64,000 nt of DNA from Mumia sp. ZJ1417 (GTDB taxonomy: Bacteria; Actinomycetota; Actinomycetes; Propionibacteriales; Nocardioidaceae), in the NCBI RefSeq assembly GCF_014127285.1, contig NZ_CP059901.1, positions 3,472,001 through 3,536,000 on the forward strand, read 5' to 3'. Under the pieces are notes generated by a model that saw only the letters and a list, made by a program, of their open reading frames with translations, made no database searches and was not told where the DNA came from. This document shows, piece after piece, positions 35,986 through 55,119 of this stretch (positions are counted from its first letter, which is position 1; every line of letters starts with the position of its first letter). The position numbers were made by a program, and so were the translations under genes.

Positions 35986-37232
35986 GGCCGTCCGAGACCG
36001 CGCTCGCCGACGCCCGTACGGCACTGGCACGCTGCGACGCTCTCGCCGCGCTGAGTGCCCGGTCGGGCCGGATCGACCGGTTCGCGCTGACGCGTTCGCA
36101 TGCGGAAGCGAACGCCCTCGTCGCGTCGTGGATGGCGCAGACGGAGATGGCGACGTGGGTCGATGCCGTCGGCAACGTGTGCGGACGGTTGGAGGGGCTG
36201 ACCTCCGACCTGCCCGCGCTCCTCCTCGGGTCACACCTCGACACGGTGCCCGACGCAGGCCGGTACGACGGGCCGCTCGGCGTCGCCATTGCGCTCGCGG
36301 TGGCCGTGCGGCTGCACGCACGCGTCGCCTCGCTGCCGTTCGCGCTGGAGGTCGTCGGCTTCTCCGACGAGGAAGGGACCCGCTTCGGCGCCGCGCTGAC
36401 GGGGAGCCGCGGCCTCGCGGGGACCTGGGACGAGGCGTGGTGGGCGCAGGTCGATGCCGGTGGGGTGAGGCTGCGCGAGGCGTTCGTGGAGTTCGGGCTC
36501 GACCCGGCGCGCGTCGGTGAGGCCGCCCGGCCGCCGGAGTCGCTGGTCGGCTATCTGGAGTCGCACATCGAGCAGGGCCCGTCCCTGGAGGACGCCGACC
36601 GCCCGCTCGGCGTCGTCAGCGCGATCGCGGGCGCTCGGCGCTTCGCGCTGCGCGTGGTCGGCGAGGCGCGCCACGCCGGCGGCACCTCGTACGAGCGCCG
36701 CCGCGATGCCCTGGTTGGCGCGAGCCACGCCGTGATCGAGGTCGAGCGGATCGCCCGTACGGAGGGCGTGGTCGCCACCGTCGGTGCGCTGGAGGTGCAC
36801 CCGGGCGCGGCGAATGTGGTCCCCGGGCACGTCGACCTCACGCTCGACCTGCGGGCCGAGCACGACGCCGACCGCGACCGGGCCTGGGACCTGATCGCGA
36901 GCGCCGTCGAGAAACGCTGCACCGAACGGGGACTGGTCTTCGAGGCGGTCGAGACGCATCGCGCCCAGGCAGTCGCGATGGATCCGGCACTGCGGGACGC
37001 CGTCGCGGCAGGCATCCGCGCGACGACCGGCGAAGAGTCGGTGACGGTGCTGTTCAGCGGCGCCGGGCACGACGCGATGGCGATGGCGGCGGTGACGCCG
37101 GTGGCGATGCAGCTCGTCCGCTGTCGCGACGGCATCTCGCACCACCCGGACGAGGCGGTGCGACTGGACGATGTGGCGCTCGCGATCGACGCGTTCGAGG
37201 CCGCCGTCCTGGCGGTGGCGGCGGAGTTCTGA
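35982..37232 (+). CDS. Allantoate amidohydrolase (M20 metallopeptidase family)
   Basis: This 416-residue M20-family hydrolase releases ammonia and carbon dioxide from allantoate in allantoin degradation. Metal-site motifs are GSHLDTVPDAGRYDGPLGV, FSDEEGTRFG and SHIEQGP. VLFSGAGHDAMAMA and GISHHPDEAV near the C-terminus are typical of AllC/HyuC proteins. The start is GTG at 35982, overlapping the transaminase stop (GTGA). N-carbamoyl-amino-acid hydrolase is the main alternative by homology, but the context strongly favours allantoate. Confidence 0.88.
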   Translation: MRPSETALADARTALARCDALAALSARSGRIDRFALTRSHAEANALVASWMAQTEMATWVDAVGNVCGRLEGLTSDLPALLLGSHLDTVPDAGRYDGPLGVAIALAVAVRLHARVASLPFALEVVGFSDEEGTRFGAALTGSRGLAGTWDEAWWAQVDAGGVRLREAFVEFGLDPARVGEAARPPESLVGYLESHIEQGPSLEDADRPLGVVSAIAGARRFALRVVGEARHAGGTSYERRRDALVGASHAVIEVERIARTEGVVATVGALEVHPGAANVVPGHVDLTLDLRAEHDADRDRAWDLIASAVEKRCTERGLVFEAVETHRAQAVAMDPALRDAVAAGIRATTGEESVTVLFSGAGHDAMAMAAVTPVAMQLVRCRDGISHHPDEAVRLDDVALAIDAFEAAVLAVAAEF

Positions 37233-37259
37233 GAAGCCGACTCTCCCTACAGGGGCTTC
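37233..37259. terminator. Hairpin between convergent genes
   Basis: GAAGCC and GGCTTC arms flank an inner CCCT-AC-AGGG hairpin in the short gap between the allantoate amidohydrolase stop and the convergent HEPN gene stop. This is a plausible bidirectional terminator. Confidence 0.45.
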
Positions 37260-37262
37260 GCC

Positions 37263-37604
37263 CTATCCACCCCCGGCCGCAATCGTCACCTGCAGACGGC
37301 GGAGCCCCTGCTCGAAGTCGTCGAGGTTGTCACTGACCGTCTGGCGGACTGCGAGGTGGTCGACAAACCTGTAGTTGTGCGCGAGCGCATTGCGTGTCGC
37401 GCGAATACCGCGCCACCGCGCGCCGAACTCAGCAATCACGAGCTCCTCCGGCAACGCCATGACTTCTTCGATGCTGGCAGCGAGTCGCTGGCACACTGCA
37501 TCGAAGATCAGGAGGTCGTCGATCGGGCCCCGTTCAAGGTGCTGACGCAGGATCGCGACATGCGAGAGCGCGTTCCGGATCCGCTCCGACGGCGCGCGAG
37601 TCAC
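37263..37604 (-). CDS. hepT: HEPN-domain toxin (HepT-like, DUF86)
   Basis: This 113-residue helical protein has the HEPN ribonuclease signature Rx4HxY as RNALAHNY (R71, H76, Y78). HEPN proteins of this type are toxins paired with an MNT nucleotidyltransferase antitoxin. In characterised pairs the antitoxin adds AMP groups to the Tyr next to the active site, and that Tyr is present here. The ATG overlaps the stop of the MNT gene (ATGA, 37601-37604), so the pair is co-translated with the antitoxin first. It lies antisense inside the purine-degradation cluster. Confidence 0.88.
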   Translation of the reverse strand: MTRAPSERIRNALSHVAILRQHLERGPIDDLLIFDAVCQRLAASIEEVMALPEELVIAEFGARWRGIRATRNALAHNYRFVDHLAVRQTVSDNLDDFEQGLRRLQVTIAAGGG

Positions 37605-38107
37605 AGCGTTGCCGCCTCATTCAACGCGGTCGAGCGAATCTTCCCCTTCAGACCTCGAGTGGGGACCACATCAACAGGAACCCCGAGAATGTCTCCGACA
37701 CGCACCGTCAGATCGCCGAGATCGAACAGTGTGAAGTCATCAGGGATGTCGACCAGGATGTCCACGTCGCTCTGCTCGTCGTCCTCGCCGCGTGCCACCG
37801 ATCCGAAGACTCGTGCGTTGCTCGCACCCGCCTCCCGGACTGCACGGCGGATCGCCGTGCGGTGCTCGCGCACGAGCCGGCCGAGCCGCGTCGTTCCACG
37901 GAACTCCTCTCGTGCAAGCTTCGCCAGGCGTGAAACCTCTGGCTGTGAGCGCCCTAGCCGCTCGGCGATCTGCCGCTGTGAGGCGCCGGCCTCGACCGCG
38001 TCGTGCACGGCATCGATGAGCAGCGCGTGGGCCGTGTCCCGAAGCAGGTCAGCACGCGCGCCGGCCTCGATCAGCCGGGCGAACCGTTCCTCGAGCGATG
38101 ACCTCAC
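37601..38107 (-). CDS. mntA: MNT nucleotidyltransferase antitoxin with N-terminal helix-turn-helix
   Basis: This 168-residue protein has a helix-turn-helix in the N-terminal third (about 33-62; SQRQIAERLGRSQPEVSRL) and a minimal nucleotidyltransferase domain in the C-terminal part. The active-site motif is GSVARG (102-107) and SDVDILVD (113-120), with the second catalytic Asp in PVDVVP. It is expected to neutralise the HEPN partner by adenylylation. The fused DNA-binding domain suggests autoregulation through the palindrome at 38116-38131. The start is taken as GTG at 38107; another GTG at 38164 would put the palindrome inside the gene. No Shine-Dalgarno is obvious for either, so a leaderless message is possible. 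Confidence 0.85.
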   Translation of the reverse strand: MRSSLEERFARLIEAGARADLLRDTAHALLIDAVHDAVEAGASQRQIAERLGRSQPEVSRLAKLAREEFRGTTRLGRLVREHRTAIRRAVREAGASNARVFGSVARGEDDEQSDVDILVDIPDDFTLFDLGDLTVRVGDILGVPVDVVPTRGLKGKIRSTALNEAATL

Positions 38108-38115
38108 GAAACGAC

Positions 38116-38131
38116 GATAGCACTTGCTATC
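38116..38131. promoter_or_regulatory. Perfect palindrome at the toxin-antitoxin promoter
   Basis: GATAGCACTTGCTATC is a 16-base inverted repeat (seven-base arms, two-base centre) nine bases before the MNT start. It is AT-rich compared with its surroundings. It is a likely binding site for the MNT protein's own helix-turn-helix and lies between the divergent MNT and OHCU decarboxylase genes, so it might affect both. Confidence 0.55.
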
Positions 38132-38178
38132 ACCGTCGAGCGAGTCCAACACGGGATGCGCCACGGCACGAGAGGGCC

Positions 38179-38724
38179 ATGCTCGTGGGCATGGACCTCG
38201 TCGCTCTCAACGACGCTCCGCGCGACATCCTCGCCGCGTCGCTGACGTCCTGCGCCGACGTCCCCCGGTGGGTCGACGCGCTCGTCGACGATCGCCCGTA
38301 CGAGTCGGTCGACGCGCTGCTCTCGTACGCCGACTCGCTTGCCGCCACGTGGACGGACGACGAGGTGACGCACGCGCTCGCCCAGCACCCGCGCATCGGA
38401 GAACGCTCCCGTCGTCCCGCGGCCGAGGCGGCGATGTCGGCGCACGAGCAGTCCGGGGTCCGGGCGGGCGGCGACGTCGCCGCTCGGCTGCGCGAGGCGA
38501 ATGCGGCGTACGAGGAACAGTTCGACCGCGTGTTCCTCGTACGGGCGGCCGGCCGCGACGCCGACGAGGTCCTCGCGCTGCTCGAGGGGCGGCTCAGCAA
38601 CGACGACGCCACCGAGCGCGAGGTCGTGAAGGGACAGCTCCGCGAGATCGCGCTGCTGCGCCTGCGCGACGCCGTGACAACGACGACCCTCACCACCGAC
38701 GCCGCGCGGGAGGATGGCTCATGA
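38179..38724 (+). CDS. 2-oxo-4-hydroxy-4-carboxy-5-ureidoimidazoline (OHCU) decarboxylase
   Basis: This 181-residue helical protein of the OHCU decarboxylase family converts OHCU to S-allantoin after uricase and HIU hydrolase. LNDAPRDILAASLTSCADVPRWV and the catalytic His in LAQHPRIGERS are diagnostic. Two ATG codons are possible, 38179 and 38191; the first has GAGAGGG close by. It overlaps the HIU hydrolase start by ATGA. In some bacteria this domain is fused to uricase; here it is separate. Confidence 0.88.
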   Translation: MLVGMDLVALNDAPRDILAASLTSCADVPRWVDALVDDRPYESVDALLSYADSLAATWTDDEVTHALAQHPRIGERSRRPAAEAAMSAHEQSGVRAGGDVAARLREANAAYEEQFDRVFLVRAAGRDADEVLALLEGRLSNDDATEREVVKGQLREIALLRLRDAVTTTTLTTDAAREDGS

Positions 38725-39056
38725 CCAGCCACGTCACCACCCACGTCCTCGACACCGCGCTCGGCCGCCCGGCCACGGGGGTCGCCGTGACGCTCAGCCT
38801 CGTCGACGAGCGCGTCGTCGAGATCATGGCCGTCGGGACCACCGACGACGACGGCCGCCTCACCGACCTCGGCCCGGAGCACCTCGCGGCGGGCACCTAT
38901 CGCCTCACCTTCGATACCGGCGCCTACTTCGCCCGCGACGACCGTCCGGCGTACTTCCCCGTCGTCGAGGTGACGTTCGTCGTCGACTCCCCCGAGCACC
39001 ACCACGTGCCGCTGCTGCTCAGCCCGTTCGCCTACTCCACCTACCGAGGGAGCTGA
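38721..39056 (+). CDS. pucM: 5-hydroxyisourate hydrolase (transthyretin-like)
   Basis: This 111-residue transthyretin-related enzyme hydrolyses 5-hydroxyisourate, the unstable product of uricase. The N-terminal signature is TTHVLDTALGRPATGV, with its active-site His, and the C-terminus is the diagnostic YRGS. The ATG at 38721 overlaps the OHCU decarboxylase stop; the uricase gene starts one base after its stop. Confidence 0.93.
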   Translation: MTSHVTTHVLDTALGRPATGVAVTLSLVDERVVEIMAVGTTDDDGRLTDLGPEHLAAGTYRLTFDTGAYFARDDRPAYFPVVEVTFVVDSPEHHHVPLLLSPFAYSTYRGS

Positions 39057-39057
39057 G

Positions 39058-39957
39058 ATGGGCCCGCCTCCCCCGTACGCGCTCGGCGCCAACCGGTACG
39101 GCAAGGCCGAGGTCCGGGTGCTGCGCGTGGACCGCGCGACGCCGCGCCACGCGCTCGCCGACCTGTCGGTCACCAGCCAGCTGACCGGCGACTTCGAGGC
39201 GGCACACGTGGCGGGCGACAACGCGCACGTGGTGGCGACGGACACGCAGAAGAACACCGTGTATGCGTTGGCCCGCGACGGCATCGGGGCTCCCGAGGAG
39301 TTCCTGCTGCGCCTCGCGGACCACTTCACTGGGTCGTTCGCGTGGGTCACGGGCGGTCGGTGGACGGCCGAGCAGTACGCGTGGTCGCGGATCGCGGTGG
39401 GCGACACCGGGCACGACCACGCCTTCACGCGCGACGGCGGCGAGGTCCGTACGGCCGCCGTGGTCCGTGACGGCGACGCGACGACGGTCCTGGCGGGGTT
39501 GAAGGACCTCGTCGTGCTCGCGTCGACGGGGTCGGAGTTCGTCGGCTTCCCGCGCGACCGCTTCACGACGCTGCCCGAGGCGACCGACCGGATCCTCTCG
39601 ACGTCGGTGACCGCGCGATGGCGGTACGGCGGAGCGGTCGCGTACGACGAGGCGTACGCCGCCGCGCGGACCGCGATGCTCGAGGCGTTCGCCGACACGC
39701 ACTCCCTCTCCCTGCAGCAGACCGCGTACGCGATGGGGAGCGCGGTGCTCGACGCCGTGCCGGAAGCGGTGGAGATCCGCTTCTCGATGCCCAACAAGCA
39801 CCACTTCCTCGTCGACCTGGCGCCCTTCGGCCTCGACAACCCCGGCGAGGTCTTCTCTGCGGCCGACCAGCCGTACGGGCTGATCGAGGCGAGCGTGCTG
39901 CGCGAGGGCGCCGAGCCTGCGGGTGCGGTGTGGGCCTCGGCCGCCGGGTTCTGCTGA
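39058..39957 (+). CDS. Urate oxidase (uricase)
   Basis: This 299-residue cofactor-free uricase oxidises urate to 5-hydroxyisourate. It has LGANRYGKAEVRVLRV with the catalytic Lys (K16), ATDTQKNTVYA with the catalytic Thr (T61), and FSMPNKHHFLVDLAPFG with the conserved His near the C-terminus. The length matches the family. It is immediately downstream of HIU hydrolase and upstream of allantoinase, so urate-to-allantoate enzymes form one transcript. Confidence 0.94.
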   Translation: MGPPPPYALGANRYGKAEVRVLRVDRATPRHALADLSVTSQLTGDFEAAHVAGDNAHVVATDTQKNTVYALARDGIGAPEEFLLRLADHFTGSFAWVTGGRWTAEQYAWSRIAVGDTGHDHAFTRDGGEVRTAAVVRDGDATTVLAGLKDLVVLASTGSEFVGFPRDRFTTLPEATDRILSTSVTARWRYGGAVAYDEAYAAARTAMLEAFADTHSLSLQQTAYAMGSAVLDAVPEAVEIRFSMPNKHHFLVDLAPFGLDNPGEVFSAADQPYGLIEASVLREGAEPAGAVWASAAGFC

Positions 39958-39961
39958 GGCC

Positions 39962-41341
39962 ATGGCCATCCATGTCGTCCGAGCGGAGCGGGCGCTCGTC
40001 GACGGGGTGCTGCAGCCCGCGCAGATCACCGTGCGGGACGGGGTGGTGGTGGGGGTCTCGACAGGCTCGACCGGCGATGGGGGTGGCTCGACCGACGGTG
40101 GGGGCGGGGGCGGCGCGTACCTCCTCCCCGGCGTCGTCGACACCCACGTCCACATCAACGAGCCCGGGCGCACGGCGTGGGAGGGCTTCGCGACCGCGAC
40201 CGAGGCCGCCGCGCGGGGAGGCGTCACGACCCTCGTGGACATGCCGCTCAACAGCATCCCGCCGACGACGACCCCGGCGGCGCTCGCGCTCAAGCGGGAG
40301 TGCGCGGCCGGTCAGCTGCGGGTCGACACCGGCTTCTGGGGTGGCGCGGTGCCCGACAGCCTGGGGTCGCTGGAGGCGCTATGGGACGAGGGCGTGTACG
40401 GGTTCAAGTGCTTCCTGGTCGACTCCGGGGTCCCCGAGTTCGCGCCGCTCGACGGCGACCAGCTCCAGGCGGCGATGCGCGAGATCGGCGGCTTCGGCGG
40501 GCTGCTGCTCGTCCACGCAGAGGACCCGGGCGTGATCGCGTCGGCGTCGGCGCGGCCAAGCAGGGCGTACGCGGACTTCGTCGCCTCGCGACCTGACGGC
40601 GCCGAGGTCGCCGCGATCGCGAGTGTCGTCGACGCCGTACGCGAGACCGGCACGCGCACCCACCTCGTCCACCTGTCGTCGGCGCGTGCGCTCGACCTGA
40701 TCGCGGAGGCGCGGGCCGAGGGCCTGCCGTTGACGGTCGAGACGTGCCCGCACTATCTCGTGCTGGACGCCGCATCCGTGCCGGACGGCGCCGCCGCGTA
40801 CAAGTGCTGCCCGCCGATCCGCGACCGCGGCAACCAGGACGCGCTCTGGGACGCCCTCGTCGACGGGATCATCGACTGCATCGTCTCGGACCACTCCCCC
40901 ACGACGCTCGCCGAGAAGGCCCGCGGCGACGGCGACCTCCAGCAGGCCTGGGGCGGGATCGCGGGGCTGCAGGTCGGGTTCGCGGCCGTCGCGGACGCGG
41001 CGTCGCGGCGCGGGATCGGCCTCGCGCAGGTCAGCGCGTGGATGTCGGCGGGCCCGGCGCGGATCGCCGGCATCAAGGGCAAGGGCGCGATCGCGGTCGG
41101 CAACGACGCGGACCTCGTCTGGTGGTCACCCGGCGGCTCGTACGAGGTCCGCGCCGATGCGCTCGCGCACAAGAACAAGCTGTCGGCATACGACGGGCTC
41201 ACCCTGCGCGGCCGCGTCCTCCGTACGGACCTACGCGGCGAGCCGGTAGGCCCCGTCCCCGATTCGGGCAGTTTTCCACCGTTGCGCGACCGCGATGAGG
41301 TGGAGAAGCGCCCGAATCGGGGACGGCTCCTGCGGCGCTGA
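39962..41341 (+). CDS. Allantoinase with repeat-derived insert and palindrome-encoded C-terminus
   Basis: This 459-residue cyclic amidohydrolase opens S-allantoin to allantoate. Metal ligands are HxH in VVDTHVHINEPG, the carboxylated Lys in VYGFKCFLVDSG, His in HLVHLSS and ETCPHYLVL, and Asp in IVSDHSPTT. Between the N-terminal beta strand (ITVRDGVVVG) and the barrel there is a Gly/Ser insert (VSTGSTGDGGGSTDGGGGGG) encoded by the repeat at 40051-40113. The last about 30 residues lie beyond the family's normal end and are encoded by a long palindrome. The ATG at 39962 follows the uricase stop by four bases. Dihydropyrimidinase is the alternative, but the uricase neighbours settle it. Confidence 0.9.
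   Translation: MAIHVVRAERALVDGVLQPAQITVRDGVVVGVSTGSTGDGGGSTDGGGGGGAYLLPGVVDTHVHINEPGRTAWEGFATATEAAARGGVTTLVDMPLNSIPPTTTPAALALKRECAAGQLRVDTGFWGGAVPDSLGSLEALWDEGVYGFKCFLVDSGVPEFAPLDGDQLQAAMREIGGFGGLLLVHAEDPGVIASASARPSRAYADFVASRPDGAEVAAIASVVDAVRETGTRTHLVHLSSARALDLIAEARAEGLPLTVETCPHYLVLDAASVPDGAAAYKCCPPIRDRGNQDALWDALVDGIIDCIVSDHSPTTLAEKARGDGDLQQAWGGIAGLQVGFAAVADAASRRGIGLAQVSAWMSAGPARIAGIKGKGAIAVGNDADLVWWSPGGSYEVRADALAHKNKLSAYDGLTLRGRVLRTDLRGEPVGPVPDSGSFPPLRDRDEVEKRPNRGRLLRR
40051..40113. repeat. Interspersed repeat copy 3 (inside allantoinase)
   Basis: GGTCTCGACAGGCTCGACC is followed by a G-rich spacer and a second GGCTCGACC about 24 bases on, then a G-rich tail. It is read in frame as a Gly/Ser/Thr linker between two strands of the small domain, in the same frame as the nuoC copy. 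Confidence 0.65.
41253..41326. terminator. Long palindrome at the allantoinase/ggt convergent junction
   Basis: Two 28-base arms (41253-41280 and 41299-41326) match at 25 positions around an 18-base centre. Each begins or ends with CCGTCCCCGATTCGGGC or its complement, and the mismatches cluster near the inner third. It lies inside the allantoinase gene; the convergent ggt stop follows the allantoinase stop with no gap. It is probably a bidirectional terminator that doubles as coding sequence. Confidence 0.6.
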
Positions 41342-43168
41342 CTACCGGCGCTGCGGGCGCACCACGAGCCCCGTGCCACCGCCGCGTCGTACGGGCTCGG
41401 CTGCTGCGGTCATCGCACCGCGCTTGCCGACCTCGATCGTCGCGGCCGCCCCGATCTGCGCGGCCGACGTGAACGCGTCGCCGGACGGGACGAGCCGCTG
41501 CCCGTACGGAGCGAGCGCCGCCCCGTACGCGTCGATGAACTCCGGCTCGGCTGGTGTCGTGGCCGCGTTGCGGCTCGACGCGCGCGGTGCCGCGACCGCC
41601 TCCGGCAACGTCATGCCGAGGTCGATGCGGTTCACGAGGATCTGCAGCACGGTCGTGATGATCGTGGCACCGCCGGGCGAGCCGAGGACGTACTTCACCT
41701 TGCCGTCGTCGAGCACGATCGTCGGCGCCATCGAGGAGCGCGGGCGCTTGCCGGGCTGGATGCGGTTGGGATCAGCCGCGTCGTACACCGCGGTGAAGTC
41801 GGTCAGCTCGTTGTTCAGCAGGAACCCGCGTCCCGGCACCGTGATGCCCGAGCCACCGGTCTGCTCGATGGTGAGCGTGTAGGCGACGGCGTTGCCCCAC
41901 TTGTCGACGACCGAGAGGTGGGTCGTCGAGACGTTCTCGGTGTCGGGCTTCTCCGTACGGTCAGCCGTGCCGCAGCCGGTGCCGCTGAGCGCGCCGGGCG
42001 CCACGGGCCGGATCGCGGCCTTCGTCGGATCGATGACGCACGCGCGCGAGTCGGCGAACCGCTGGCTGAGCAGCGTCTTCGTCGGCACGTCCACGAAAGC
42101 CGGGTCGCCGACGTACGCGTTGCGGTCGGCGAACGCGTGGGCGCTGGCCTCGAGGAACAGGTGCAGGCTCTGTGCCGTGTCCGCGCCGCCGCCCAGGCGA
42201 TAGTTCTCGAGGATGTTCAGCGCCTCGCCGACCGTCGTCCCGCCCGAGCTCGACGGCGCCATCGAATAGACGTCATGCCCGCGATAGCTCACCTTGCTCG
42301 GCGCCTGGTGACGGACGCGGTACGCGGCGAGGTCCTCGGTCGTCATCGAGCCCGCCGGTGCGGGCAGCGCGGAGGCCGGGTCCTTCGGCGGCGCCTGGAC
42401 GGTCTTGGCGATCTCCTCGGCGAGCGCGCCGCCGTAGAAGGCCTTCGGCCCGCGCTTCGCGATCGCGGCGTACGTGCGGGCGAGGTCGGGGTTGCGGAAC
42501 GTCGTGCCGACCTGCGGGGCGTCGCCACCGGGCAGGAACAGAGCGGCGGTGTCCGGGAAAGCAGCGAACCGCGCCTTGTTGTCGAGCGTCTGGCTGCGGA
42601 ACGTCTGGTCGACCGGGAAGCCCTTTGCCGCGACCTCCGTCGCCGGTGCGAGGGCTCGGGCGAGGCTGCGGGTGCCGAAGCGCGCCAGCGCCGCGTCCCA
42701 CGTCGCGACCGTGCCCGGCACGCCGACCGCGACGCCGGACGAGACGAGCTCCGGGGTGAACCGGTACGGCTGCCCGGTCGCGGGGTCGAGGAACGCATCT
42801 TCGGGCGAGATGCCGGCCGGCGCGGTCTCGCGTCCGTCGATCGTGGAGACCTTGCGCTTCTTCGCGTCGTAGAAGACGAAGTAGCCGCCGCCCCCGATCC
42901 CCGCGCTGTACGGCTCGGTGACGCCGAGCGTGGCCGCCATCGCGACCGCGGCGTCCGCGGCGTTGCCCCCACGGGCCAGCACGTCACGTCCGACCCGGCT
43001 CGCGGTGGCGTCGACCGACGAGACCGCGCCGCCCGTGCCGTACGAGGTGGGGGTCGGTACGGGGGGCGGTGGCTCCGGAGCGGGCCGGTGGGCCTGGGCG
43101 GGAGGCGTCCCGACGAGCGCGACGAGGGTGAGTGCGGCGGCGACGGTGAGGATGCGGGGGCTCATCAT
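41342..43168 (-). CDS. ggt: Gamma-glutamyltransferase (exported)
   Basis: This 608-residue gamma-glutamyltranspeptidase cleaves gamma-glutamyl bonds of glutathione-like substrates. The N-terminus is a secretion signal (ILTVAAALTLVALVGTPPAQA), followed by a Pro-rich stretch. The self-processing nucleophile is Thr415 in ENVSTTHLSVVD. GGNAADAAVAMAATLGVTEP and the GSPGG of the small subunit are family signatures. Two ATG codons in tandem (43168 and 43165) are both possible starts. Actinobacteria of this type use mycothiol rather than glutathione, so the natural substrate may be another gamma-glutamyl compound. Confidence 0.93.
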   Translation of the reverse strand: MMSPRILTVAAALTLVALVGTPPAQAHRPAPEPPPPVPTPTSYGTGGAVSSVDATASRVGRDVLARGGNAADAAVAMAATLGVTEPYSAGIGGGGYFVFYDAKKRKVSTIDGRETAPAGISPEDAFLDPATGQPYRFTPELVSSGVAVGVPGTVATWDAALARFGTRSLARALAPATEVAAKGFPVDQTFRSQTLDNKARFAAFPDTAALFLPGGDAPQVGTTFRNPDLARTYAAIAKRGPKAFYGGALAEEIAKTVQAPPKDPASALPAPAGSMTTEDLAAYRVRHQAPSKVSYRGHDVYSMAPSSSGGTTVGEALNILENYRLGGGADTAQSLHLFLEASAHAFADRNAYVGDPAFVDVPTKTLLSQRFADSRACVIDPTKAAIRPVAPGALSGTGCGTADRTEKPDTENVSTTHLSVVDKWGNAVAYTLTIEQTGGSGITVPGRGFLLNNELTDFTAVYDAADPNRIQPGKRPRSSMAPTIVLDDGKVKYVLGSPGGATIITTVLQILVNRIDLGMTLPEAVAAPRASSRNAATTPAEPEFIDAYGAALAPYGQRLVPSGDAFTSAAQIGAAATIEVGKRGAMTAAAEPVRRGGGTGLVVRPQRR

Positions 43169-43226
43169 CCGACCGTGGCAGGGGTCACGGAGGCCCGCAA
43201 CCCCTCAGCGCGGTGCCTCGCGGCGG

Positions 43227-43997
43227 TCAGATCCGCTCGAGCGTGGGGCGCTTCGGCTTGACCGTGTCGCCCGAGGACGTCCCGTTGATCCGCCGCTGGA
43301 CCCACGGCACCGCGAACTCCTTGGCCCACTGGAGGTCGGCGTCGCGCCGCTGCTTCTTGGTGGGCGGCGCCGCCTTCGGCAGACGGGGCTTTTTGAGCTC
43401 GTGGCTGACCCCGAGCGTGTCGAGCACGTGGAACGCCATCTGCTTGTGGCCGTAGCTCGACAGGTGGAGACGGTCGGTGTCCCAGTAGCGGTCGTCGCGG
43501 TACTCGCGGAACCGCCAGAAGTCCACCAGCGTCGCGCCGTGCCTGTCGGCGATCTCGCGGACGATCTCGTTGTAGATCGCGACGCGGCCCCGAAGCTTGC
43601 CGAACACCGGCGCGTAGCCCAGGTCGTACCCGGTGAACATCACCACGCGCCCCCCGCAGACGGCGAGCCGCCCGATGGCCGCGTCGTACAGCTCACCGAG
43701 GAGGTCGAGGTCGACCTTCGGGCGCAGGATGTCGTTGCCGCCGGCATAGATCGTCACGAGGTCCGGCGACAGCTTGAGCGCCGCCTCGAGCTGCTCGGCG
43801 ATCACGGGCTTGAGCAGGCGACCTCGTACGGCGAGGTTGGCGTACCCGAAGTCGTCGGACTTGGTCGCCAGCACCTCGGCCACCCGGTCGGCCCAACCAC
43901 GCAGCCCGTTGGGGCGGCGCTTGTCGGGGTCCCCGACTCCTTCGGTGAACGAGTCGCCGAGCGCGACGTAGCGGTGGTACACGGGTTCGCTGACCAT
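43227..43997 (-). CDS. SGNH/GDSL-family hydrolase
   Basis: This 256-residue esterase-like hydrolase has the SGNH blocks: GDSF (nucleophile Ser) in YVALGDSFTEGVGD, the Gly of block II in ANLAVRG, AGGND, and DTDRLHLSSYGH with the Asp-His pair. It has no signal peptide, so it is probably cytosolic. The C-terminal about 50 residues are Lys- and Pro-rich. It is upstream of ggt on the same strand (58-base gap) and divergent from the Ski2-like helicase. The substrate is unknown. Confidence 0.9.
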   Translation of the reverse strand: MVSEPVYHRYVALGDSFTEGVGDPDKRRPNGLRGWADRVAEVLATKSDDFGYANLAVRGRLLKPVIAEQLEAALKLSPDLVTIYAGGNDILRPKVDLDLLGELYDAAIGRLAVCGGRVVMFTGYDLGYAPVFGKLRGRVAIYNEIVREIADRHGATLVDFWRFREYRDDRYWDTDRLHLSSYGHKQMAFHVLDTLGVSHELKKPRLPKAAPPTKKQRRDADLQWAKEFAVPWVQRRINGTSSGDTVKPKRPTLERI

Positions 43998-44080
43998 GTG
44001 CTCGATTCTCGCACCGGCCCGCCCGCGGACCGTGGAGGTGGCGTTCGACGGTGGTTTCCGGATGCGATGATGGTCATATC

Positions 44081-46714
44081 ATGCGCCTCGTCGACCACCT
44101 CCCCGCCGCCGAGGAGTCCGACGACGCCGACGTCGTCTTCGACGCGTTCAGCACGTGGGCCGAGGGTGAGGGCCTGACCCTCTACCCCGCCCAGGAGGAC
44201 GCGCTCATCGAGATCGTGTCCGGCTCGAACGTCATCCTCGCGACGCCCACCGGGTCCGGCAAGAGCCTCGTCGCCGCCGGCGCGCAGTTTGCCGCGATGG
44301 CGAAGGGCAAGCGCAGCTTCTACACCGCCCCGATCAAGGCGCTGGTGTCGGAGAAGTTCTTCGCGCTGGTCGAGATGTTCGGCGCCGACAACGTCGGGAT
44401 GATGACCGGCGACGCCTCGGTCAACGCCGACGCGCCGATCATCGCGGCGACCGCAGAGATCCTGGCCAACAAGGCGCTGCGCGAGGGCGCGGCGGCCGAG
44501 GTCGGGCTCGTCGTGATGGACGAGTTCCACTTCTACTCCGAGCCGGACCGTGGCTGGGCGTGGGAGGTCCCGCTGCTCGAGCTGCCCCATGCGCAGTTCC
44601 TCCTGATGTCGGCCACGCTGGGAGACACCGCCCGCTTCGAAGAGGACCTCACCCGCCGTACGGGCCGAGAGACGACCCTCGTCGCCGGCACCGAGCGGCC
44701 GGTCCCGCTCGTCCACGAGTACGTCACCTCCCCCGTGCATGAGACGGTCGAGGAGCTGCTCGCGACCGGGCAGTCGCCGATCTACATCGTGCACTTCACG
44801 CAGGCCTCGGCCATCGAGCGCGCACAGGCGCTGTCGAGCATCAATGTGACGACCCGTGCGGAGAAGGACACGATCGCCGCCGCGCTCGGTGACTTCCGGT
44901 TCCAGACGGGGTTCGGCAAGACGTTGTCGCGACTGGTCCGGATGGGCATCGGCGTGCACCACGCAGGGATGCTTCCGCGCTACCGGCGCCTCGTCGAGCG
45001 GCTCACCCAGAAGGGCCTGCTCAAGGTCGTCTGCGGCACGGACACGCTCGGCGTCGGCATCAACGTGCCGATCCGTACGGTCTTGTTCTCGGGGCTGTCG
45101 AAGTACGACGGCATCCGCCAGCGGCACCTGCACGTGCGCGAGTTCCAGCAGATCGCGGGGCGGGCCGGCCGCGCCGGGTACGACACGATCGGCCGTGTCG
45201 TCGTCCAGGCACCCGAGCACGAGGTCGAGAACGCCAAGATGGTCCGCAAGGCAGGCGACGACGTCAAGAAGCTGCGTCGGATCCAGCGCAAGAAGCCGCC
45301 CGAGGGCTTCGTCAACTGGTCCGACCGGACGTTCGACAAGCTCTCCACCGGCCAGCCGGAGCCGCTCGCGTCGCGGATGCGGATGACGCACGCGATGGTG
45401 CTGAACCTCGTCGCGCGTCCCGGCGACGCCCGCGCCGCCGTGAAGTCGCTGGTCATGGACAGCCACGCGAGCGAGGCAGACCAGGAGCGGATGCTCGCCG
45501 AGGCGGAGTCGATCTTCGAGACGCTGATCGAGGGCGGTGTCGTTGAGGAGCTGGCCGAGCCCGACGCCGAGGGCCGCACCGTACGGCTGACGGTCGACCT
45601 ACAGGCGGACTTCGCGCTCAACCAGCCGCTCGCCCCGTTCGCCGTCGCCGCGCTCGAGATCCTCGACCCCGAGTCACCGACGTACGCGCTCGAGGTCGTC
45701 TCGGTCTTCGAGGCGATCCTGGAGGACCCGCGCCCGATCATCAGCGCCCAGCGCAACCGTGCCAAGGGCGAGGCCGTGGCCGAGATGAAGGCCGAGGGGC
45801 TGGAGTACGAGGAGCGCATGGAGCTCCTCGAGGAGGTCGAGCACCCCCAGCCGCTGCGCGACGAGTTGGAAGTCGCGTACGAGGCCTACCGCACCGGACA
45901 CCCCTGGGTCTCCGACTACGAGCTCAAGCCGAAGTCCGTCGCCCGCGAGATGTGGGAGCGGTCGATGACGTTCGCCGAGTACGTGAGCATGTACCAGCTC
46001 GCGCGCTCCGAGGGGCTCGTGCTGCGCTACCTGTCGGACATCTACCGGACGCTGCGCCACACGGTCCCCGACAGCTATGTGACCGACGAGATCGACGACA
46101 TCACGTACTGGCTCGGCGAGGTCGTCCGCCAGACCGACTCGAGCCTCCTCGACGAGTGGGAGGCGCTCGCGTCGGGCGAGGGCGGCTCGGTCGACGTGGT
46201 GATCGCCCAGCACGAAGCCCTCGACGCCGGCCCGCCTCCGGTCACGGCCAACGAGCGGGCGTTCCGGGTGCTGGTCCGCAACGCACTGTTCCGCCGGGTC
46301 GAGCTGATGGCGCTGCGTCGCTGGATCGACCTCGGCGCGATGGACGGTGCCGCCGGGTGGAACGCCGACGTGTGGCAGGAGGCGATCCAGGACTACTTCG
46401 CCGAGTACGACACGCTCGGCACCGGCCCCGACGCGCGCGGCCCCGCGATGCTCGTCGTCGACACCGACCCCTCGCTGGTCGACACCGACCCCTCGCCGGT
46501 CGACACCGACCCCTCGCCGGTCGACACCGACCCCTCGCTGGTCGAGCCTGTCGAGACCCCCCGCGTCTGGCACGTGCGCCAGATCCTCGACGACCCCGAG
46601 GGCGACCGCGACTGGGCCATCTTCGCCACAGTGCACCTCGACGCGTCCGACGAAGCGGGCGAGGCAGTCGTGCAGATCACGGATGTGGGCCCCCAGACGG
46701 ACACAGGCGTCTGA
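44081..46714 (+). CDS. Ski2/Mtr4-like superfamily 2 helicase with tandem-repeat C-terminal insert
   Basis: This 877-residue RNA helicase-like ATPase is of the actinobacterial DUF3516 type. Walker A is ATPTGSGKSLVAAG (about 55-67), the DExH box is VVMDEFHFYSEPD, motif III is LLMSATLGD, and the helicase C domain contains VHHAGMLPRYRRLVERL and QIAGRAGRAGYD. The remaining about 400 residues form the family-specific C-terminal region. Near the end, four copies of VDTDPS(L/P) are encoded by a 21-base tandem repeat, followed by VEPVETP from the interspersed repeat. The ATG at 44081 has no clear Shine-Dalgarno. A 13-base palindrome (GGCGTCTGACGCC) covers the stop codon. Confidence 0.9.
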   Translation: MRLVDHLPAAEESDDADVVFDAFSTWAEGEGLTLYPAQEDALIEIVSGSNVILATPTGSGKSLVAAGAQFAAMAKGKRSFYTAPIKALVSEKFFALVEMFGADNVGMMTGDASVNADAPIIAATAEILANKALREGAAAEVGLVVMDEFHFYSEPDRGWAWEVPLLELPHAQFLLMSATLGDTARFEEDLTRRTGRETTLVAGTERPVPLVHEYVTSPVHETVEELLATGQSPIYIVHFTQASAIERAQALSSINVTTRAEKDTIAAALGDFRFQTGFGKTLSRLVRMGIGVHHAGMLPRYRRLVERLTQKGLLKVVCGTDTLGVGINVPIRTVLFSGLSKYDGIRQRHLHVREFQQIAGRAGRAGYDTIGRVVVQAPEHEVENAKMVRKAGDDVKKLRRIQRKKPPEGFVNWSDRTFDKLSTGQPEPLASRMRMTHAMVLNLVARPGDARAAVKSLVMDSHASEADQERMLAEAESIFETLIEGGVVEELAEPDAEGRTVRLTVDLQADFALNQPLAPFAVAALEILDPESPTYALEVVSVFEAILEDPRPIISAQRNRAKGEAVAEMKAEGLEYEERMELLEEVEHPQPLRDELEVAYEAYRTGHPWVSDYELKPKSVAREMWERSMTFAEYVSMYQLARSEGLVLRYLSDIYRTLRHTVPDSYVTDEIDDITYWLGEVVRQTDSSLLDEWEALASGEGGSVDVVIAQHEALDAGPPPVTANERAFRVLVRNALFRRVELMALRRWIDLGAMDGAAGWNADVWQEAIQDYFAEYDTLGTGPDARGPAMLVVDTDPSLVDTDPSPVDTDPSPVDTDPSLVEPVETPRVWHVRQILDDPEGDRDWAIFATVHLDASDEAGEAVVQITDVGPQTDTGV
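46457..46560. repeat. Four 21-base tandem repeats joined to interspersed repeat copy 4
   Basis: Units of 21 bases start at 46457, 46478, 46499 and 46520, each beginning GTCGACACCGACCCCTCG and differing only in the last codon. Then GTCGAGCCTGTCGAGACC (46541 on) is the interspersed-repeat core in reverse orientation. All of it is in frame in the helicase gene. Copy number may vary between strains. Confidence 0.85.
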
Positions 46715-46743: not shown

Positions 46744-47286
46744 GTGGCTCTCTTCTTCGTCGCCGATCCGACCGTCACGCGACCGGTACGGGCGGGTCTG
46801 CTCAAGACCTGGACCGACGCCTCGAACGCCGGTGGTGCGATCGGGTTCGTCCCGCCGGTCTCCCCGCTCGACGTCGAGCCGATCCTCGACGAGCAGCTGG
46901 CGGCGGTCGCCGACGGCCGCATCCGGATGGTTGTCGGCCTCGACGGCGACCAGGTGCGGGCCGCCGGGTTCCTGGAGTCGAACTCCCACCGCCTGATGCA
47001 GCACTGGGTCTGGGCGACGACCATCATGGTCCACCCCACGGCCCAGGGGCGCGGCGCCGGTTTCGCGCTGATGCTCGCGCTCGGCTCGCTGGCGCGCAGC
47101 ATGCCCGGCATCGAGGCCGTACGCCTCAGCTGCCGTGGCGGGCTCGGGCTCGAGCACTTCTACGCGCGCTGCGGCTACAAGGAGGTCGGCCGCGTTCCGG
47201 GGGCGATCCGCGTCGGCCATGGTGACGACCGAGACGACATCACGATGCTGCTCACGCTCGAATCCCGCTCCCACCCGGAGCGGTGA
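46744..47286 (+). CDS. GNAT-family N-acetyltransferase-like protein
   Basis: This 180-residue protein has the acetyl-CoA-binding signature of GNAT enzymes, with VWATTIMVHPTAQGRGAGFALM (R/QxxGxG type) in the middle and LEHFYARCGYKEVGRVPGAI near the end. The start is set at GTG 46744 because the frame upstream is a shadow of the helicase. It lies 29 bases after the helicase stop on the same strand. The substrate is unknown. Confidence 0.82.
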   Translation: MALFFVADPTVTRPVRAGLLKTWTDASNAGGAIGFVPPVSPLDVEPILDEQLAAVADGRIRMVVGLDGDQVRAAGFLESNSHRLMQHWVWATTIMVHPTAQGRGAGFALMLALGSLARSMPGIEAVRLSCRGGLGLEHFYARCGYKEVGRVPGAIRVGHGDDRDDITMLLTLESRSHPER

Positions 47287-47328
47287 ATCAGGTCCCACGC
47301 GCGTCGCCGCGGTGGGACCTGGCTCACC
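47282..47328. terminator. Palindrome after the GNAT gene
   Basis: Arms of 17 bases (47282-47298 and 47312-47328) include CAGGTCCCAC and GTGGGACCTG, with one two-base mismatch, around a 13-base loop. The GNAT stop codon is inside the left arm. It separates the GNAT gene from pta on the same strand. Confidence 0.6.
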
Positions 47329-49484: not shown

Positions 49485-49572
49485 CACTTTCCGTTGGGCC
49501 CCACGCAAAGTCGCCGCCCCACCGGAATGTTGCGGTGGGGCCCGCACTCTCCGTGGGCCCCAACGGAAAGTG
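49485..49572. terminator. Large nested palindrome between convergent pta and aldehyde dehydrogenase genes
   Basis: Outer arms of 21 bases (49485-49505, 49552-49572; CACTTTCCGTTGGG start) match at all but one or two positions. An inner perfect hairpin, CCCCACCG-8-CGGTGGGG, lies at 49517-49540. It fills nearly all of the 105-base gap and is probably a bidirectional terminator. Confidence 0.65.
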
Positions 49573-53445: not shown

Positions 53446-53452
53446 CCCCGCA

Positions 53453-53511
53453 CGCGTTGGTGACTCCGTGGTCACCGCGCCGGCGCGGGTGACCACTCAC
53501 GCACCGACGCG
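53453..53511. terminator. Long mismatched palindrome between convergent genes
   Basis: Two 24-base arms (53453-53476 and 53488-53511) match at 19 positions, with mismatches grouped in the middle of each arm, around a GC-rich centre. The GMC oxidoreductase stop (53497) lies inside the right arm. It is a probable bidirectional terminator. Confidence 0.5.
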
Positions 53512-55119
53512 CGCGCCGCCCACCCGCGCCGGCGGCAGGACGCGCCCCCGCAGCAGGTCAGCAGCCTTCTCGCCGACCATGATCGTCGGCGCGTTGGTGT
53601 TGCCGCGCGGCACGACCGGCATGACCGACGCATCCACCACCCGCAGTCCCACGACTCCCCGCACCCGCAGCTCCGGATCGACGACCGCGGCCTCCCCGTC
53701 GCCCATGGCGCAGGTGCCGACGGGATGGAACAGCGTCTGGGTCTGCGCCCGGGCGTGCGCGACGAGCTCGGCCTCGGTCGGCACCGCGCGCCGCGCCGAG
53801 GGCAGCCACAGATCCTTGAGGAAGCGCGCGAGCGGCCCCGACGCCACGGTCTCGAGGAGCCGCTGCGTCCCGGCGACCATCGCATCGAGGTCGGACTGGT
53901 CGTCGTAGTAGGCGGCGTCGATCTCCGGGTGCCAGGTCGGGTCCGCCGACCGCAGCCGGAGCGACCCGCGGCTCGCGACGCTGACCAGCGTCGGCGCGAT
54001 CGTCATCGACCGGACCTGAGGCTCGTGCATGCCGTTGTCGTAGAACGCGCTCGGCGCGACGTGCGCCTGGAGATCGGGTGCCGCGAGCCCGTCACGGGTG
54101 GCGAAGAACGCCCCCGCCTCACCGACGTTCGAGGCGAGCGGCCCCTTGCCGGTCGCCTTCCAGCGCAGGAGGTTGCCGAGCGTCGACGCCTCCGCGAGGT
54201 CGGTCGAGTCCCTGGTCGCCCAGACGAGCGGCAGCGCCGGGTGGTCGTGGAGGTTGGCGCCGACACCGGGCAGGTCGGCGACGACGTCGATGCCGTGCTC
54301 GCGCAGGTGGGCCGCCGGGCCGATGCCGGAGAGCATGAGGACCTGCGGGCTGTTGACCGCGCCGCCGGACAGCACGACCTCGCGCTCGGCGCGGGCGATC
54401 TGCTCGCCGCCGGCCACGCGGTACGCGACGCCGGTGGCCCGCCCGCCCTCGATCACGATCCGCGTGACCAGCGCCCCGGTCAGCACGGTGAGGTTCGGGC
54501 GAATGAGCGCCGGGCGCAGATAGGCGTCGACCACGGACCAGCGCCGGCCCTTGCGGCACGTGACCTGATAGAGCCCCGCGCCCTCCTGCGACTCGCCGTT
54601 GAAGTCGTCGGTCGCCTTCAGGCCCGAGGCCACCGCCGACTCGACCCACGCCTCGCTCAGCGGGTGGGTGTAGACGCGGTCCTCGACACGCACCGGGCCG
54701 TGCTGCCCGTGGTACGGGCCCGCGAGGCGGGTGTTGCCCTCGGAACGCAGGAAGTACGGAAGGACGTCCTCGTACCCCCATCCGGTCGCGCCGTGCGCAT
54801 CGCGCCACGTGTCGTAGTCGACCCGGTTGCCGCGGATGTAGATCATCGCGTTCATCGACGAGCAGCCGCCGAGCGCCTTCATGCGTGGCCAGTACGCCCT
54901 GCGGCCGCCGAGCTGCTTCTGAGCGACCGTGCTGTAGCCCCAGTCCCAGCGGGTCTTGATGAGGTTCGCGAAGGCGGCCGGGATCGCGATCTCGTCGGCG
55001 TCGTCGACCGGCCCGGCCTCCAGCAGGAGGACGGACACGGACGGGTCCTCCGTGAGCCTCGTCGCGACCACCGCTCCGGCACTGCCGGCACCCACCACCA
55101 CGTAGTCGTACGACGTCAT
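53497..55119 (-). CDS. GMC-family FAD oxidoreductase (choline dehydrogenase-like)
   Basis: This 540-residue flavoprotein of the glucose-methanol-choline family has the FAD-binding motif YVVVGAGSAGAVVA at the N-terminus and GGCSSMNAMIYIRGN and SGGAVNSPQVLMLSGIGPA as the two GMC signatures. The C-terminal TLFHPVGTCAMGDG has the active-site His, and a second conserved pair lies in PRGNTNAPTIMVGEKAAD. It would oxidise an alcohol; choline is only one possibility. The ATG at 55119 fits the start of the FAD motif; an upstream alternative at 55173 would lie in the palindrome-rich promoter. Confidence 0.92.
   Translation of the reverse strand: MTSYDYVVVGAGSAGAVVATRLTEDPSVSVLLLEAGPVDDADEIAIPAAFANLIKTRWDWGYSTVAQKQLGGRRAYWPRMKALGGCSSMNAMIYIRGNRVDYDTWRDAHGATGWGYEDVLPYFLRSEGNTRLAGPYHGQHGPVRVEDRVYTHPLSEAWVESAVASGLKATDDFNGESQEGAGLYQVTCRKGRRWSVVDAYLRPALIRPNLTVLTGALVTRIVIEGGRATGVAYRVAGGEQIARAEREVVLSGGAVNSPQVLMLSGIGPAAHLREHGIDVVADLPGVGANLHDHPALPLVWATRDSTDLAEASTLGNLLRWKATGKGPLASNVGEAGAFFATRDGLAAPDLQAHVAPSAFYDNGMHEPQVRSMTIAPTLVSVASRGSLRLRSADPTWHPEIDAAYYDDQSDLDAMVAGTQRLLETVASGPLARFLKDLWLPSARRAVPTEAELVAHARAQTQTLFHPVGTCAMGDGEAAVVDPELRVRGVVGLRVVDASVMPVVPRGNTNAPTIMVGEKAADLLRGRVLPPARVGGARVGA

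Follow-up and report, generated by a model that had tools for sequence, protein, structure and literature searches.

A palindrome translated within the allantoinase gene of Mumia sp. ZJ1417 as a probable solo copy of a selfish DNA family linked to AbiEi–DUF559 nuclease genes

The window, the whole 64-kb stretch of Mumia sp. ZJ1417 DNA that was analysed, contains the allantoinase gene allB and, convergent with it, the gamma-glutamyltransferase gene ggt; the two ORFs abut (Table 1). A long palindrome lies wholly within the allB ORF, with its last base 15 nt from the ORF end. The hairpin scan, in which loops of up to 50 nt were allowed, delimited it as 41253–41326, with an 18-nt loop between the arms. 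The preliminary description had placed a palindrome with 28-base arms inside the last allantoinase codons and a convergent ggt directly next to it, and both statements proved correct. A repeat finder gave arms of 33 nt with 85% identity of the arms. The folding energy of the hairpin is −74 kcal/mol (z −8.2), and none of 200 shuffled sequences folded equally well. Two comparable hairpins, this one and an 88-bp palindrome, were found in the window and none in five Markov-1 controls (strict scan); the strict scan with short loops misses the allB element. An Rfam search of window positions 36000–46000 gave no matches. Below, G000 denotes the genome of Mumia sp. ZJ1417 itself and G001–G005 the other five genomes of the genus; a unit is a palindrome–gene–palindrome arrangement, and a solo copy is a palindrome without such a gene.

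Table 1. Genes and palindromes located in the window (positions are those of the window).
Feature	Position	Strand	Basis
allB, allantoinase	39962..41341	+	ORF, TIGR03178, orthologue comparison
Left hairpin arm, 28 nt	41253..41280	+	Hairpin scan, fold
72-bp palindrome, type-1 family copy, conserved outer bases CGTCC..GGACG	41254..41325	.	Genome matches and covariance model
Right hairpin arm, 28 nt	41299..41326	+	Hairpin scan, fold
ggt, gamma-glutamyltransferase, convergent with allB	41342..43168	-	ORF and profile match
Solo type-4 palindrome, of the type flanking the AbiEi–DUF559 gene G000:2260399 (L324); overlaps gene end	47282..47328	.	
88-bp palindrome, second dispersed family, convergent gap	49485..49572	.	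Hairpin scan
67-bp palindrome, third dispersed family	53449..53515	.	

The palindrome and its edges encode GPVPDSGSFPPLRDRDEVEKRPNR of the allantoinase, after which the ancestral GRLLRR and the stop codon follow; the protein reads GEPV, then 24 element-coded residues, then GRLLRR. The same allB–ggt junction is found without the palindrome in G001 and G005, where the orthologous proteins have the tails GEPVFDAATGGVPTAPTGRLLRR and GETVFDATTDAVPATATGRLLRR, respectively. The G003 junction is also palindrome-free, but this genome differs downstream. Compared with G001 and G005, 72 nt stand in place of about 39 nt, in frame and with the old stop kept (+33 nt), so that the 24 codons of the element correspond to a net gain of 11 residues. 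It had been suggested that the palindrome supplies about 30 residues beyond the normal end of the family. This is true relative to the TIGR03178 profile, which covers residues 5–429 of 459, but not as a measure of novelty. The alignment of allantoinase C-termini accordingly gave a divided answer: the element does add 24 codons, but palindrome-free orthologues also bear a tail, which ends in GRLLRR or QLLSR. No target duplication was seen, and the allB event is unlike simple transposition because about 39 nt were replaced. In Mumia xiangluensis, a weak AbiEi–DUF559-like gene (L041:6300-7253) is located just past ggt, beside a palindrome-free allB–ggt pair.

The palindrome had been regarded as a one-off, and here the preliminary description was mistaken. 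The search for the arm sequence elsewhere in the genome was decisive: BLAST revealed 34 matches at 18 sites of G000, all of them 71–72 bp, and the palindrome belongs to a dispersed family linked to a nuclease gene. With a covariance model, at least 60 matches at at least 31 sites were found in G000; these are minimum counts, since 150 of 3254 candidates were scored. The family is present in all six genomes of the genus according to the covariance model. The R1 model matches 32 of 294 genomes of the taxonomic family, and the wider R2 model matches 24 of the 391 order genomes, spread over 4 of 40 genera.

The family set comprises 104 palindromes, the motif filter having taken out four of 108. 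In 21 aligned copies the length is constant at 71–72 nt. The outer bases (CGTCCCCGATTTG..) are conserved across copies, while the middle stem varies between genomes. Covariation was analysed in 79 copies of exactly 72 nt: 87.5% of the cells are paired, double changes occur in 27 of the 32 pairs, and 399 double-change cells were observed versus 157 after shuffling. When partner columns were slid as a control, pairing fell to 33–49%, the slides by a single column giving 39–49%. The outer pairs 1–72 to 5–68 are formed in 74 to 79 of the 79 copies, and the stem is about 30 bp long. Counts on the transcribed strand, taken over tandem and in-gene copies, gave 44 G-U and 56 A-C combinations, so there is no preference for G-U. 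Given this dominance of Watson–Crick pairs without favour for G-U, the palindromy would have a DNA-level cause; selection on the stem at the RNA level was rejected for lack of a G-U excess, and stem pairing is not visibly maintained at that level, as far as these alignments indicate.

Members of the family are also read in frame within other proteins, which, from their sequences, we take to be HutH, a PcaL-like fusion, and CysG-like, RodZ-like and NirB-like proteins. The NirB-like gene provides a second palindrome gain, seen only in G000 among the five genomes compared. In G000, G001, G002 and G005, the palindrome enters HutH at exactly the same point but has a different stem type in each of the four; in G003 the point is shifted. 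This copy is translated and has a same-strand gene downstream. Judged by sequence comparison, the HutH copy is older than the allB and NirB-like gains. At the hutH end of G004 (L244) lies a palindrome remnant, in which the outer bases are kept and the middle is deleted in frame.

The 102 classified copies of the six genomes include 42 in convergent gaps, 44 between tandem genes, 13 in genes, 2 in divergent gaps and 1 at a locus edge (genes were called by a purpose-built codon-score caller, not a standard program). Copies sit 5–25 nt past stops, often filling convergent gaps, and 35 of the 44 tandem copies are within 25 nt of the upstream stop, overlaps included. The 3'-end placement is strong, because these classes differ from the intergenic background, which in an unbiased 400-kb sample is, by length, 38% divergent and 20% convergent. 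Like an intrinsic terminator, the family forms a stable hairpin just past coding sequences, although the allB copy itself precedes the stop. Unrelated long hairpins of the same genome gather in convergent gaps as well (14 of 25). A T-tract (at least four T in eight nucleotides) was found downstream in none of 128 flanks, and terminator prediction listed no terminator at the allB palindrome. The proposal that the same DNA serves both as coding sequence and as bidirectional terminator therefore stands in its first half, the element being translated in frame, and is not supported in its second, given the lack of T-tracts and the palindrome-free junctions of G001 and G005.

Pairs of copies separated by about 1 kb enclose one and the same gene in G000, G001 (twice), G002, G003 and G004, and the homologous gene of G005 likewise has a palindrome on each side. 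The bracketed gene encodes a protein of 305 residues with an N-terminal AbiEi match (PADLOC) and a C-terminal DUF559/MTES_1575 match (Pfam). Pfam recognises the nuclease only modestly (E about 1e-7), and L324 and L350 gave no match. In the AlphaFold2 model (pLDDT 94), residues 185–289 resemble I-Bth0305I (3r3p) with Z 12.4 and rmsd 2.4 over 96 residues, NGO0050 with Z 11.5 and Vsr with Z 10.3, and residues 1–180 resemble AbiEi with Z 11.8. Among 26 sequences drawn from the 55 loci described below, E188, D221 and E232 are invariant, and H238 and D248 are conserved in at least 90%; we take these five residues to be the EDxHD motif. The modelled half with its conserved acidic residues is predicted to be a catalytic domain of the EDxHD/Vsr-like fold. 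Homologues of the nuclease were found neither in the phage collection nor in IMG/VR; six plasmid records contain weak, partial ones, and the 80 named loci around allantoinase yielded one, weak. AbiEi is reported to bind inverted repeats upstream of its own gene and thereby to repress it (PMC3985639). I-Bth0305I is said to act as a dimer, with a target that spans nearly 60 bp (PMC3943268), comparable with the two-fold 72-bp site described here.

For the analysis of flanking palindromes, 55 nuclease loci were taken: 25 homologues from the genus and the best 30 of 66 matches elsewhere, the latter from 17 chosen genomes, 15 of which had a match. Hairpins were sought within 330 nt. They were present on both sides at 36 of the 55 loci, and both-side hairpins within this distance were absent at 19. 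The median similarity of the two palindromes was 39 for same-locus pairs and 9 for other-locus pairs (95th percentile 22); 33 of the 36 pairs exceed this percentile, those of L306, L321 and L323 being poorly matched. Among 367 control genes in 464 kb of G000, one matched pair was found, and it surrounds an AbiEi–DUF559 gene. Matched pairs thus occur at 33 of 55 nuclease genes and at 0 of 366 other genes (Fisher p 1e-34), where the control genes come from one genome, G000, and 30 of the 55 test loci from other genomes. Among the 33 loci, more closely related proteins have more similar palindromes (Spearman 0.495 between protein identity and palindrome similarity; none of 2000 permutations was as high). 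Sequence comparison across these loci establishes that each nuclease gene carries its own palindrome pair, which co-varies with the protein. The palindrome differs from gene to gene; therefore, many natural enzyme–target pairs are on hand for recognition tests.

All five palindrome types of the five nuclease genes in G000 also occur as solo copies elsewhere in the DNA examined. Across the genomes, the unit that best matches a solo copy lies in the same genome for 42 of the 85 copies (permuted mean 14, maximum 25); the remaining ones match foreign units mostly because sister genomes share types. At two sites, solo and unit alleles can be compared directly (the gene names are read from the sequences). 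Between pyc and lpd, G005 has a solo palindrome, and G000, G001, G002 and G004 have a unit. Between the cobC-like gene and yaaA, G002 has a solo palindrome, whereas G000 and G005 have units that differ from each other, the one in G000 being of type 3. These alleles are what one would expect if the gene had either entered solo sites or been lost when the two palindromes recombined; both directions fit.

Orthologous copies were compared in 43 pairs at 15 sites with both flanks alignable over at least 500 nt. The identity of the middle stem is 0.72 within a genome, 0.61 between orthologues and 0.59 in other cross-genome comparisons, and in 82 of 86 comparisons a copy is closer to its best paralogue than to its orthologue. 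The sites are common to the genomes, and the stem sequence follows the genome, which in these alignments demonstrates concerted turnover of stem types. Such turnover could also come from selection for a shared binding protein.

We propose, with a probability of roughly two in three, that allB harbours a solo, non-autonomous member of a selfish DNA family, whose autonomous form would be a palindrome–AbiEi–DUF559 gene–palindrome unit. The product of the gene, about 305 residues long, would combine an AbiEi-like N-terminal half with a Vsr/EDxHD-like (DUF559) C-terminal half. The AbiEi half would bind the palindrome of its own unit, a two-fold target, which the Vsr-like half would nick or cut. Repair from another copy would homogenise the palindromes within one genome, carry the gene into sites that hold a solo palindrome and occasionally seed a palindrome at a new site, replacing local DNA. 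Copies would survive where harm is small: just past stops or, as in-frame insertions like the one in allB, within linkers and C-terminal tails. We infer binding, cutting and repair-driven spread by the AbiEi–DUF559 endonuclease from the matched pairs, the co-variation with the protein, the solo and unit alleles, the turnover and the two gains. Any terminator effect of the palindromes would be secondary.

An unlikely alternative is that the palindromes are chromosomal binding sites of a resident AbiEi–DUF559 protein acting as a regulator or roadblock at gene ends, co-evolving with it by selection and not by movement. The reported binding of inverted repeats by the AbiEi family (PMC3985639), the strict 3'-end placement, the concerted change of sites within a genome and the co-variation of protein and palindrome all agree with it. 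However, the new in-frame copies in allB and the NirB-like gene speak against it, an end-of-gene role being senseless for a mid-gene copy, as do the several unrelated palindrome types in one genome and the continued conservation of nuclease residues. Quite improbable, in our judgement, is that another enzyme, a transposase acting in trans, moves the palindromes as REP-like repeats, with the nuclease as a passenger that prefers palindromic sites. A REP-like distribution, at the 3' ends of convergent or same-direction genes with some intragenic copies, is described in a REP survey (PMC3733652), and IS1272 inserts into stem-loops and replaces them (PMC5678879). Yet a separate matched pair at each nuclease gene, with a similarity that tracks the protein, is unexpected of a passenger, and the Y1 transposase (PF01797) was found in none of the six genus genomes by a search whose control was positive in 5 of 14 named genomes. 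That the palindromes are ordinary bidirectional terminators, amplified or converged at gene ends, with the one in allB translated by chance, is very improbable: hairpin strength, the position 5–25 nt past stops and the concentration of unrelated long hairpins in convergent gaps would suit it, but a main role as terminator was set aside, and a possible secondary one kept, on the missing T-tracts, the lack of a G-U preference on the transcribed strand, the fixed length of 71–72 nt and the sequence families, the copies located mid-gene and within the HutH gene, the palindrome-free allB–ggt junctions of G001 and G005, and the restriction of matched pairs to nuclease genes.

The proposed selfish element resembles REP/REPIN sequences with their RAYTs in that short dispersed palindromes lie mostly just 3' of genes, some of them in frame, and that a dedicated DNA-processing gene is flanked by palindromes. 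The general REP feature of dispersal mainly downstream of genes is seen in the 102 copies. RAYT is a Y1/HUH enzyme, whereas in the present system a Vsr/EDxHD-like endonuclease is joined to an AbiEi-like half. REPs carry a GTAG tag beside an imperfect palindrome of 20–40 nt, whereas the palindromes here are near-perfect, 71–72 nt long, have paired CGTCC/GGACG or related ends without the tag, and differ in their stems between linked genes. Identity with REP/RAYT was rejected, no Y1 transposase having been found in the six genomes. In its proposed mode of action the system resembles both REP/RAYT and a homing endonuclease, but the defining features of the former, Y1 and GTAG, are missing.

With CGTC REPs and Rickettsia palindromic elements (RPEs), the family shares in-frame gene insertion, 3'-end placement and terminal CGTC. 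In-frame insertion into unrelated genes, as in RPEs, is represented by the 13 in-gene copies among the 102 and by the two gains relative to orthologues. In CGTC REPs, as given in the 2013 survey, the CGTC is unpaired, the stem is 8–9 bp and the loop 4–5, whereas here CGTCC is paired and the stem is about 30 bp (PMC3733652). The same text presents CGTC REPs without a dedicated transposase, and Actinobacteria occur in it zero times (PMC3733652).

As to the nuclease, the likeness to the EDxHD homing endonuclease I-Bth0305I and to Vsr concerns the fold of the catalytic domain (Z 12.4 and 10.3); in contrast to them, the enzyme here has an AbiEi-like N-terminal half, and its genes lie between host genes with a palindrome on each side. 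A homing endonuclease cuts element-free sites, and its gene is then copied into them; the solo and unit alleles at pyc–lpd and cobC–yaaA would fit such behaviour, without indicating direction. The N-terminal half shares the fold (Z 11.8) and the PADLOC matches of AbiEi with the AbiE type IV toxin–antitoxin system, but here it is fused to a nuclease, and no adjacent AbiEii toxin gene is present at the pyc–lpd unit of G000, whose neighbours are pyc and lpd.

Bacterial genomes are rich in dispersed palindromes, and a long hairpin at the end of a gene is usually dismissed as a terminator. To our knowledge, most dispersed palindromes have no known mobiliser, REPs with RAYTs excepted. The palindrome–nuclease linkage has the look of a kind of selfish DNA not described before. 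Among the open-access papers listed and judged by title and the opening of the abstract, none described a link between palindromes and AbiEi–DUF559 genes; a prior description in subscription journals is possible. Whether AbiEi–DUF559 "palindrome nucleases" are a new selfish kind that homes into and homogenises its own palindromes, REP-like in its repeats and Vsr/homing-type in its enzyme, we regard as evenly balanced. If true, dispersed palindromes would gain a cause and DUF559 a function; it would also be explained why long hairpins stand at gene ends and how proteins such as this allantoinase come by peptides inserted in frame.

Stand-alone DUF559 nucleases in other phyla may behave in the same way, and DUF559 nucleases would then be candidates for the missing mobiliser of CGTC REPs. 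Ten of 31 plasmid-record matches, hand-picked and not sampled, were inspected. At six of these ten DUF559 loci, the flanks are similar above the 95th percentile of shuffles: in Azospirillum, Sinorhizobium sp. (weak), Deinococcus, Picosynechococcus, S. meliloti and Arthrobacter, the last of which is itself an actinobacterium. The positions of CGTC motifs near the ten loci gave nothing clear. The flank repeat of the S. meliloti gene occurs in at least 39 places of its replicon. On S. meliloti pSymB (L366), the stand-alone DUF559 gene lies between near-identical inverted copies of this replicon-dispersed palindrome, and on Picosynechococcus pAQ6 (L365), CCCCGATTCGGGG-type repeats form similar blocks to either side of a DUF559 gene.

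Other repeats were noted in the window. The second dispersed family (88 bp) has a three-hairpin layout, CACTTTCCGTTGGGG.., and occupies about 20 places in the own-genome DNA examined, mostly convergent gaps; no nuclease linked to it was found in that DNA. The third family (67 bp) has at least four copies in its own genome, where no AbiEi–DUF559 gene with a palindrome of this type was seen. Similar palindromes occur upstream of the AbiEi–DUF559 gene of G004 (L316), the likeness being judged by eye. A GTCTCGACAGGCTCGACC-like repeat was found six times in the window (40055, 25247, 27977, 46540, 60338 and 62270) and 29 times in the 400-kb sample. Its copy in allB, at 40055, encodes VSTGSTG near the N-terminus of the allantoinase, and because the palindrome is at the C-terminus, allB contains in-frame repeats at both ends.
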